In this document: positions 34,104-36,638 of the stretch, one piece after another
Layout of the letters: the number at the start of each line of letters is the position of its first letter
Position numbering within the stretch: the stretch's first letter is position 1
DNA from: Thermodesulfobacteriota bacterium
GTDB taxonomy: Bacteria; Desulfobacterota_D; UBA1144; Nemesobacterales; UBA2774
Assembly (NCBI GenBank): GCA_021604765.1
Contig: BQJP01000005.1
Span: 1-64,000 of the forward strand
Length of the DNA stretch: 64,000 nt
Direction: 5' to 3'
Program-made: the position numbers and the translations under genes
The notes under the pieces: generated by a model
The model's database searches: none
What the model was told of the DNA's origin: nothing
Seen by the model: only the letters and a program-made list of their open reading frames with translations

Positions 34104-34503
34104 CTATTGCACCCTATTTAGTTCTGGATATTAGCCACTAAACTTATCACATTAAATTATCTAAAGTAAAGTTGCATATTCCAAAAAGTTGAAAATGAAC
34201 CTGATAATGTATCAAATGTTCTAGAGGACTCTGTAAATACTTTTTAAATCATGCCAACAGACTGCGAATCTCTTTTAGAGCAAATAGATGTTCTGCAAAA
34301 ACGCAGTTCACAAACTGCAACCAAACTGATTGACTAGCAATGACGCGGGCCATATCATATTGCAAGATACTACTAAAATTTATTAAATCACAACGATGAA
34401 AGCAAAAATAGCATGAAGATTATATTGCAAAAAAAACACCCCTTATGTACAATTACTTACTACACCTAATCTGAAACGAAATACACGGAGGCAAGACCCT
34501 ATA
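34104..34503. other. 400-bp intergenic region with a candidate rightward promoter
   Basis: Divergent gap between the symporter gene and the MoxR gene. TTGCAA (34425-34430) and TACAAT (34448-34453), 17 bp apart, form a reasonable promoter for the MoxR gene, whose GGAGG lies at about 34486. A 28-codon ORF at 34251-34337 has no ribosome binding site and is not called. I see no RNA gene, repeat array or strong hairpin in the rest. Confidence 0.5.
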
Positions 34504-35466
34504 ATGACAACTTCAAATCCATTCGTAGTTCTCAAAGAAGAAATGGATAATCTCGTAGTGGGACATGAGGAAGTAAAGTTAGCCCTACTGCTAGGCATTA
34601 TCGCTAGAGAACATATATATGTGGAGGGACCTCCCGGAACTGCAAAAACTATGTTATCCGAAATCGTGTCTGCAGCCGCCAGCCTGAGATTCTTTTTCTA
34701 CCAGCTTCATAGAGACACCAGGTTATCAGAATTGATTGGTGACCTAGTGATTTCAAAAGAGACAACAGATAGCGGAGAAATAATTAAACAAAAGGTAGTA
34801 AAAGGTGGAATATTAACTTCAGAAATTTGTCTTCTGGACGATATTTCAAGAGCCCCAGGAGAATCGCTAAACGTACTACTTAGAATACTTAACGAAAGAA
34901 AATTCTTTAATGAAGACATCCCTCTTTTAACCGCAATCGGAACAAGTAATCCGACAGCTGATGAGTATTATAATGAACCTCTTGATCCAGCCAACCTTGA
35001 TAGATTTGTTTTGCAGATTAATTCACAAGGACTGTCTTACGGCAGGAAATGGGATGAAGCAAAAGAGGTTATAAAGCTTTATAGCGAAAGACCAAACGAA
35101 TACGAAGTACCCACCAGAGTAAGCAGAGAGGTCTTTGATGAATATTACGAAAAATTAAGCACTGTTGAGATACCTTTAGCTGTTCAAGAAGCATTAGCTA
35201 AGTTTGTAGCAACTCTGATAGAAGACTTCGGATGTAATGAAACAAACTCTCTTATATCGGACAGAACGTTCTTCGTGAAATCACTTAAGATCATGAGAGC
35301 TCATGCATTATTACATGACAGAGAGCATTGCACAGTTGAAGACTTAAATGCATTAAAGTTTATGACGGCATTTAGGATTCCTGAAGAAGTATTTCAACAG
35401 CTCGATCAAATTCTTGACGACCTGACATCCAAAAAAAAAAAGACAGGGACAGACAAGATAGGCTAG
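34504..35466 (+). CDS. MoxR-type AAA+ ATPase, chelatase-I-like
   Basis: 320-residue AAA+ ATPase of the MoxR/magnesium-chelatase clade. Walker A is GPPGTAKT (42-49); Walker B is unusual, LLDDISRAP (about 110-118) where most family members have an Asp-Glu pair. The sensor segment GTSNP (about 156) and the Arg-rich lid follow. The last codons run through 11 adenines and end at a TAG. MoxR proteins work with VWA-domain partners to remodel or insert metal into target proteins, and the VWA gene lies next in the -1 frame. See the slippery-site entry. Confidence 0.87.
   Translation: MTTSNPFVVLKEEMDNLVVGHEEVKLALLLGIIAREHIYVEGPPGTAKTMLSEIVSAAASLRFFFYQLHRDTRLSELIGDLVISKETTDSGEIIKQKVVKGGILTSEICLLDDISRAPGESLNVLLRILNERKFFNEDIPLLTAIGTSNPTADEYYNEPLDPANLDRFVLQINSQGLSYGRKWDEAKEVIKLYSERPNEYEVPTRVSREVFDEYYEKLSTVEIPLAVQEALAKFVATLIEDFGCNETNSLISDRTFFVKSLKIMRAHALLHDREHCTVEDLNALKFMTAFRIPEEVFQQLDQILDDLTSKKKKTGTDKIG
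35436..35442 (+). other. Candidate -1 frameshift site A-AAA-AAG
   Basis: The MoxR frame reads TCC AAA AAA AAA AAG across an 11-A run (35431-35441), which ends in the heptamer A-AAA-AAG used by E. coli dnaX. A -1 shift here leaves the short MoxR end (stop at 35464) and enters the VWA frame, which is open from 35418 without a stop. The product would be about 711 residues: AAA+ domain, acidic Gln/Glu linker, VWA domain. Transcript slippage on the A-run could give the same fusion. No clear upstream Shine-Dalgarno or downstream stem was seen. Confidence 0.55.
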
Positions 35467-35660
35467 AGGAAGAGCAACAACAGCAACAACAAGAATCTCA
35501 ACCAGATGGTGATCAGCCGGGAGAAGATGAGGACCAGCACCAGGAAATTCCCGATGAAGATGCAACAAAAGAATCCCAGGACGATGAACTGTCCGAAGCC
35601 CGAAAGACCTTTTTCCAAGCCCTAAAAGAACTCAAAGAAAATATAGAAAAAGAAAGTAAC

Positions 35661-36638
35661 ATGATCCCTCCTGATAATCAGGATATACCATCCGATCCCG
35701 ATGGTCAGATAAGTGAAGACCTAGGAGACCGAGAAAATAGAGAACCCCCCGAATCTAACAAGGTTTTTGCAAGTAAATCCCCTGACCCGGGTGATGATGA
35801 TGACTACTGGATTGGCGGTAAGAAGAATACTGATTCAGCAGATAATGTAAGAATTATCATGAAGGTTTTGGAAGGAAACTTCCAGAGAAGCATGGCACTC
35901 AAAGCCCCGCATCCCGGGGGAATGCCCAGAACGTGGAAAAGAATGAATTATTTCGACGAGATTGAAGATATAGATCCTTTTGAGGCAACAATCTGGACTG
36001 AGAACACAACCCCGACTTTACCCCGTGTGCACAAAAGAGAAAGAGAAATGATGGGCGGTGAGATAGCAATACTTCGCGATGTAAGCACCTCGATGATGGG
36101 AGTGTATAGCGAATGGTCTTCTTCAGTAGTAAGGGGCGTAATAGAGCTTGCTAGATCAAAGAAAATGAGAGTTGGTTATGTTGAATTTAATCACCGCTCT
36201 TACAAGTATAAGAGGAACTCACAATTCTTTACGCGCGACTACAACTGGATGCTTGATCTTGCTTCAAAAACAGAGTGTTCAGGAAATACAAATTACGAGG
36301 ATGCTTTAAAAGACGCAATTTCAGAATTCAGAGGCCGCGGACTTAGAAACAAACACATACTATTTATAACCGACGGTATTCCGACCTCCGGAGATTGTGA
36401 TGTGATCGGCGAGAGGATTAGAGCTAAGAAGCTCGGGGTATGTATTCACTCTATATTTATTGGATCTAAGAACTATCCCAAGATTCTGGAAAAGATTTCA
36501 CAGGAAACAAGCGGGACTCAATTTATAGCGACTAAAAGAAAAAATGGATTAATTAGAATCGAGAGAGAAGATAAGAAAATTTTGAAACCGGCTACGGATC
36601 AAACAAGGGTAGATCCATTCGGCGAAGTGTTTGCTTAG
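35661..36638 (+). CDS. VWA-domain protein, chelatase-D-like (real coding region probably begins upstream)
   Basis: From the ATG the product is 325 residues with an acidic start and a VWA domain whose metal site reads DVSTSM (Asp140, Ser142, Ser144), followed by NYEDAL and FITDGIPTSGD. The frame is open and protein-like for another 66 codons upstream (35463-35660), rich in Gln, Glu and Asp, but has no ATG, GTG or TTG and no ribosome binding site at the ATG; a CTG at 35589 is the only near-start. This fits production as a fusion with the MoxR ATPase by -1 frameshift. The MIDAS residues are intact, so the domain should bind a partner through Mg. Confidence 0.8.
   Translation: MIPPDNQDIPSDPDGQISEDLGDRENREPPESNKVFASKSPDPGDDDDYWIGGKKNTDSADNVRIIMKVLEGNFQRSMALKAPHPGGMPRTWKRMNYFDEIEDIDPFEATIWTENTTPTLPRVHKREREMMGGEIAILRDVSTSMMGVYSEWSSSVVRGVIELARSKKMRVGYVEFNHRSYKYKRNSQFFTRDYNWMLDLASKTECSGNTNYEDALKDAISEFRGRGLRNKHILFITDGIPTSGDCDVIGERIRAKKLGVCIHSIFIGSKNYPKILEKISQETSGTQFIATKRKNGLIRIEREDKKILKPATDQTRVDPFGEVFA

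Follow-up and report, generated by a model that had tools for sequence, protein, structure and literature searches.

The MoxR-VWA locus

The window, that is, the whole 64,000-nucleotide stretch of DNA analysed here, comes from a Candidatus Dadabacteria genome, and the locus described in this section, in which all the features are on the forward (+) strand, belongs to family f1. A MoxR-type AAA+ ATPase is encoded by an open reading frame that runs from ATG 34504 to the TAG at 35464–35466 (34504–35466; 320 residues, ending in KKKKTGTDKIG) and that matches bpMoxR (2.8e-21), AAA_5 and AAA_lid_8. Its start is preceded by a good Shine-Dalgarno sequence (GGAGG; 34485–34503 including the spacer; predicted duplex of −9.5 kcal/mol). 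Further upstream lies a promoter-like element, TTGCAA-17-TACAAT (TTGCAAAAGAAA...CTTATGTAAAAT; 34425–34453), and since a similar element precedes the gene in most of the Dadabacteria upstream regions displayed, the MoxR-VWA gene probably has its own promoter, a function inferred from the consensus match and this recurrence. The gene is monocistronic and, in most of the Dadabacteria examined, converges on mltG-proB, with GST and gyrA further out; the shared neighbourhood supports orthology and gives no indication of function.

Near its end the MoxR frame crosses a run of eleven A (35431–35441), flanked by C35430 and G35442 and read as TCC AAA AAA AAA AAG ACA, and the stop codon follows eight codons past the third AAA codon. 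This run, the putative slippage site, includes the heptamer A_AAA_AAG (35436–35442). The open stretch of the −1 frame spans 35418–36638, and beyond the run it encodes an extension of 398 residues (35442–36638), formed by an acidic linker rich in Gln, Glu and Asp (35442–35660) and a VWA domain (8.4e-09) with the MIDAS-type motif DVSTS; a product shifted at the run would therefore have 313 + 398 = 711 residues. The linker includes the peptide stretch DELSEARKTFFQALK and the conserved block LSEARKTFFQALKELKENI, which is located directly 5' of the first possible start. From 35418 on, the −1 frame has no ATG, GTG or TTG before 35661, and the ATG at 35661, in contrast to the MoxR start, has no Shine-Dalgarno-like motif on its 5' side (20 nucleotides upstream: ATATAGAAAAAGAAAGTAAC). 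The first-pass annotation of this DNA had already placed the heptamer in the MoxR frame and described a −1 frame that is open from 35418 to the VWA domain and devoid of a start or ribosome binding site before or at 35661, and both readings hold. Its arithmetic on run length has to be corrected: it had named 10 or 12 A as the alternatives that would give a simple fused or broken gene, whereas 12 A (or 9) fuse the two frames and 10 A place the VWA domain in the third frame.

The run is the longest homopolymer anywhere in the window, and only seven distinct runs of at least 10 A occur on either strand of the 3.42-Mb assembly, two of which reach 11. Another coding A10 of the same genome (L101, G000:C31:22529-22538) lies in frame inside a 753-codon open frame and is a possible second slippage site; the genome's own dnaX has no long A-run.

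Conservation of the run

The comparison set consisted of 59 homologous loci: 52 from Dadabacteria and seven orthologues from three other small groups (G081/G228/G366, G151/G289/G388 and G089), which were identified by a profile search with the fused protein. A run of 9 to 11 A occupies the identical position in 59 of 59. In the Dadabacteria loci this position corresponds to the end of the AAA+ lid and the run is A9 in 6, A10 in 30 and A11 in 16, while the next-longest A-run in the same genes has 5–8 A, and at other conserved Lys positions of the MoxR part AAA is the codon in only 31–82% of the loci. Run length is nearly fixed within families, with A11 in 13/13 genomes of f1 that contain the region (the window genome counted), A10 in 12/13 of f8 and A10 in all of f6 save an indel-rich assembly. 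The f1 genomes were separately assembled and have the same frame offset, so that a sequencing error in the A11 of the window is not credible. The nucleotide run stays constant while the residues that it encodes vary (QKKN, RKKK, SKKK, DKKK).

When the amino acids were kept fixed and synonymous codons were redrawn from family usage, the probability of a run of at least 9 was 0.02–0.65 per locus. The product across 11 families, with one value each, is about 2e-9, and it should be taken as a guide and not as a p-value because the families share ancestry. In the AT-rich f8 (32% GC), an A10 by itself is not very improbable (P about 0.64), and in several families the KKK motif and the heptamer account for much of the run length. 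A search of 43 high-quality Dadabacteria genomes found the gene in every one, including those of about 1 Mb. The viral contigs searched contain no relatives, and the plasmids searched contain distant MoxR proteins only.

The seven orthologues outside Dadabacteria lie in loci of 53–61% GC, and all of them have the two halves in frame, with an A10 or A11 run in the corresponding position. Here too the run is kept while the residues it encodes differ (QKKN, QKKK, RKKK, DKKK), and in the f102 group a CGA codon lengthens it, a codon used elsewhere for only 5 of 146 Arg residues in that group. Their −1 and +1 frames reach a stop 0–12 codons past the run. In G151 a second copy (L114, G151:C1:1543227-1545125), a fused MoxR-VWA paralogue without the A-run, exists beside the slippage version; the AAA+ motif of this paralogue is diverged (QGPPGCAKT).

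Evidence that the linker is translated

Between the run and the block LSEARKTFFQALKELKENI, the linker read in the VWA frame has a pN/pS of 0.27 in f1, 0.14 in f6 and 0.24 in f8, and of 0.34 in the in-frame family f4; the whole range (0.14–0.34) compares with 0.08–0.15 for the MoxR and VWA parts. The first possible start in the window comes only after the conserved block, and across loci the first start in the VWA frame is scattered from 12 to 131 codons past the run; in L018 it is 131 codons in, within conserved sequence. Given this constraint and the position of the starts, the simplest reading is that ribosomes enter the linker from the MoxR open reading frame through the run. In annotation pipelines the VWA half would probably appear as a gene truncated at 35661 or as a pseudogene.

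The frame relation between the two halves

The VWA half is in the −1 frame at 41 loci, all from Dadabacteria, in frame at 15 (eight Dadabacteria loci of families f4 and f2 and the seven from other groups) and in the +1 frame at two Dadabacteria loci (L038 of G047 and L044 of G019). The in-frame genes of f4 and f2 are single open reading frames of about 700–709 residues. Both +1 loci have A9, one base short of their family relatives, and since each has a same-family relative with A10 in the −1 state, they may be one-base assembly errors. No frame state was given to the G042 locus (L048/L093, G042:C6), which belongs to an indel-rich assembly; its gene has several in-frame stops and a run of 9 A versus 10 in sister genomes, and looks like the result of indel errors. 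The frame state is mostly family-wide, with at least four changes on the tree, and whether the in-frame state of f4 and f2 was gained once or twice is not resolved (AU p = 0.20).

The first-pass annotation had proposed that homologues be compared for conservation of the run, the offset and the linker, and it had considered that a different frame relation in relatives would refute the proposal. Conservation is indeed seen for the run (59/59) and for the linker (pN/pS 0.14–0.27) but not for the offset, and the refuting condition is thus met by the 15 in-frame and two +1 loci. Every one of these loci still keeps the run, however, and its retention despite a changed frame relation supports slippage instead of refuting it. 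The set of −1, in-frame and +1 orthologues also constitutes a natural experiment on transcriptional versus ribosomal slippage.

At the loci with a readable gene, the non-product frames reach a stop 0–16 codons past the run. In the in-frame members of f4 and f2, the TAG that closes the short product in f1 persists in hidden form in the alternative frame: it spans an ATA or TTA codon, through an Ile/Leu change, and the G that begins the next codon. Only f2, f40 and f102 have both alternative stops nearer than expected from codon choice (P about 0.05 or less), and their proximity was not unexpected in f4 or f32 in the codon-usage test. The hidden and near stops lend modest support to the idea that selection for the short product would act in the in-frame members too.

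The AAA+ and VWA domains

The MoxR part fulfils the Pfam criteria for a MoxR-type AAA+ domain with its lid (bpMoxR 76 bits, cutoff 27; AAA_5; AAA_lid_8). The nearest solved sequences are 2r44 and RavA, and the RavA equivalog of NCBIfam is not met (61.3 bits against a cutoff of 681). The criterion for a VWA domain with a MIDAS is also met (36 bits, cutoff 23.8; DVSTS, GNTNY and ITDG conserved), and to judge from these motifs the MIDAS is apparently intact. The AlphaFold model of a fused relative (L072) has a mean pLDDT of 60, good for domain assignment only.

Identity with a chelatase I subunit (ChlD/ChlI) was rejected, as the family models are not met: the Mg_chelatase model gives 18.6 bits in the window, below its cutoff of 20.3, and 21.0 bits in one distant relative, in both cases over the P-loop only, and in three fused relatives TIGR02442 gives at most 32.5 bits, against 779. 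MoxR proteins usually carry Asp-Glu at Walker B. In the window the motif reads LLDDIS, with an Asp-Asp pair (34837–34842, residues 112–113) that is fully conserved in the alignments, and the catalytic residue would then be Asp in the short and the long products.

One gene, very probably two products

Because the run is conserved, the linker is constrained upstream of any start and fused relatives exist, one gene very probably yields both an ATPase of about 320 residues and an AAA+-linker-VWA protein of about 711 residues, and the inference of the first-pass annotation that both are made is strongly supported by this comparative evidence. That this monocistronic gene gives rise to its two proteins through programmed slippage on the poly-A run is considered highly likely, even though there are no transcript, ribosome-profiling or peptide data. 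In the proposed mechanism, RNA polymerase would slip on the run and generate mRNAs of mixed run length, of which those in one frame would encode the MoxR ATPase and those in another the MoxR-linker-VWA protein, while unshifted or mis-shifted frames would run into a nearby stop; ribosomal −1 slippage at A_AAA_AAG may contribute too.

Bacterial RNA polymerase slips efficiently from a run length of 9 (PMC5009743), and the two criteria for transcriptional slippage that can be read from sequence, a conserved A-run of about 9 or more and nearby stops in the non-product frames, are fulfilled. Slippage of the polymerase is probably the main route, with a possible ribosomal contribution, given that the run is never shorter than 9, the default frame flips, there is no conserved Shine-Dalgarno sequence or near hairpin and both other frames have stops; sequence alone cannot settle the matter. 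Baranov et al. warn that slippage on A9 may be suppressed in some AT-rich bacteria. A purely translational origin, namely programmed −1 ribosomal frameshifting at A_AAA_AAG or A_AAA_AAA on the model of E. coli dnaX and fs-chlD, is a rather unlikely reading that still has points in its favour. All the runs contain one of these heptamers, which is in phase in every −1 member (A_AAA_AAG in f1, the family of the window, and in f8), so that for genes in the −1 or the in-frame state the same products could also come from a ribosomal −1 shift, and magnesium-chelatase cassettes shift up to 63% in E. coli (PMC3711429). The dnaX-like shift invoked by the first-pass annotation consequently remains a candidate, now one of two, with RNA polymerase slippage as the better fit: the runs have 9–11 A whereas 6–7 suffice for the ribosome, in several groups both alternative frames soon reach a stop, and the two A9/+1 loci, if real, are beyond the reach of a −1 shift. 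Stimulators of the E. coli dnaX type were looked for and the criterion was not met, with no conserved Shine-Dalgarno sequence upstream of the run and no hairpin at the usual spacing. The fold z-score of the downstream 50–80 nucleotides is near 0 in f1 and f4, the hairpin of the f6 genus g10 begins about 20 nucleotides downstream and does not occur in the f6 outgroup, no hairpin is common to the members of the other families examined, and the Rfam search gave no match.

A homopolymer within a coding gene, in a phylum that exhibits several frame states, is also what a phase-variable (contingency) locus would present, in which changes in run length at the DNA level toggle the VWA half; the nearly fixed run length of each family, the largely family-wide frame state and the presence of the gene in every high-quality genome searched, even the smallest, make this very improbable. 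The existence of two separate proteins, the 320-residue MoxR ATPase and a VWA protein translated from the internal codon at 35661, would be consistent with a compact gene pair that has an ATG at that position, and in other systems the MoxR and VWA proteins usually come from two adjacent genes (RavA-ViaA, NorQ-NorD). It is very hard to accept, as 35661 lacks a Shine-Dalgarno sequence and is preceded in the window by a conserved coding block, the position of the first start is inconsistent among loci, and the genes are fused at eight Dadabacteria and seven other loci. As regards the possibility of an ordinary gene fusion with a sequencing or assembly indel, or of a pseudogene in decay, these are metagenome-assembled data, homopolymers are error-prone and G042 contains clear indel errors; the identical A11 and offset of the 13 f1 genomes and a pN/pS of about 0.1 in both domains nevertheless leave practically no room for it.

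With regard to what programmed slippage could achieve, NorQ and NorD have a stoichiometry of NorQ6:NorD1, with about one VWA protein per NorQ hexamer, and the MIDAS of the NorD VWA domain has been proposed as the contact with the target (PMC9976466). By analogy with NorQ/NorD and with the chelatase I and D subunits, it is inferred that the short and long forms would co-assemble in one AAA+ hexamer, and the slippage rate would fix the proportion between plain ATPase subunits and subunits with the target-binding VWA domain and its MIDAS. The most novel form of the hypothesis is put forward with moderate confidence: an unreported, ancient MoxR-VWA family that spans phyla and in which the ratio of plain to VWA-bearing subunits in each ring would be set by slippage of RNA polymerase on a conserved A10–11, and not by ribosomal frameshifting, while the DNA frame would be free to drift between short-default and long-default states.

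Comparison with known systems

The domain layout of the fs-chlD products, AAA+ and AAA+-linker-VWA, is partly general knowledge. The likeness of this Mg/Co chelatase gene to the MoxR-VWA gene resides in the production of both subunits from one gene and in an A_AAA_AAR slip site (PMC9227772, PMC3711429, PMC5009743). The fs-chlD gene differs in that it has a ChlI-type AAA+ domain of the chelatase family and relies on ribosomal frameshifting, usually with a downstream RNA structure, whereas the window gene has a MoxR-type ATPase, a longer run and no conserved structure. The MoxR family appears to reach the fs-chlD outcome by a probably different mechanism, and the existence of two slippage solutions for the same subunit pair suggests that it is important to keep plain and VWA-bearing AAA+ subunits at a fixed ratio. 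The RavA-ViaA and NorQ-NorD systems likewise pair a MoxR ATPase with a VWA/MIDAS protein, but they do so with separate genes and chains.

The dnaX gene of Thermus thermophilus, which undergoes transcriptional slippage at A9, has a stop not far away in each of the other two frames (PMC5009743, PMC1088944). It resembles the MoxR-VWA gene in its coding A-run of at least 9, in these stops and in its two AAA+ products that differ by the C-terminal part, and mechanistically it is closest to the in-frame relatives of the window gene (PMC1088944, PMC5009743). It belongs to an unrelated family. Most MoxR-VWA members also differ from it, and resemble mxiE, in that their unshifted DNA frame specifies the short product, and this state has changed from one lineage to another. 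In Shigella mxiE and spa13, which are unrelated genes, slippage is likewise needed to join two overlapping frames into the longer product.

No earlier report of slippage was found for a MoxR-VWA gene or for Dadabacteria in the literature searched, which left out most subscription papers, and the matches for frameshifting together with MoxR and VWA, as far as the available portions of those sources go, treat other subjects. Programmed slippage that gives AAA+ and AAA+-VWA products (fs-chlD) and transcriptional slippage at A9 (Thermus dnaX) were already known; the MoxR-VWA gene of Dadabacteria appears to be a new case, and its family would join the few cellular genes whose programmed slippage has been conserved in evolution.
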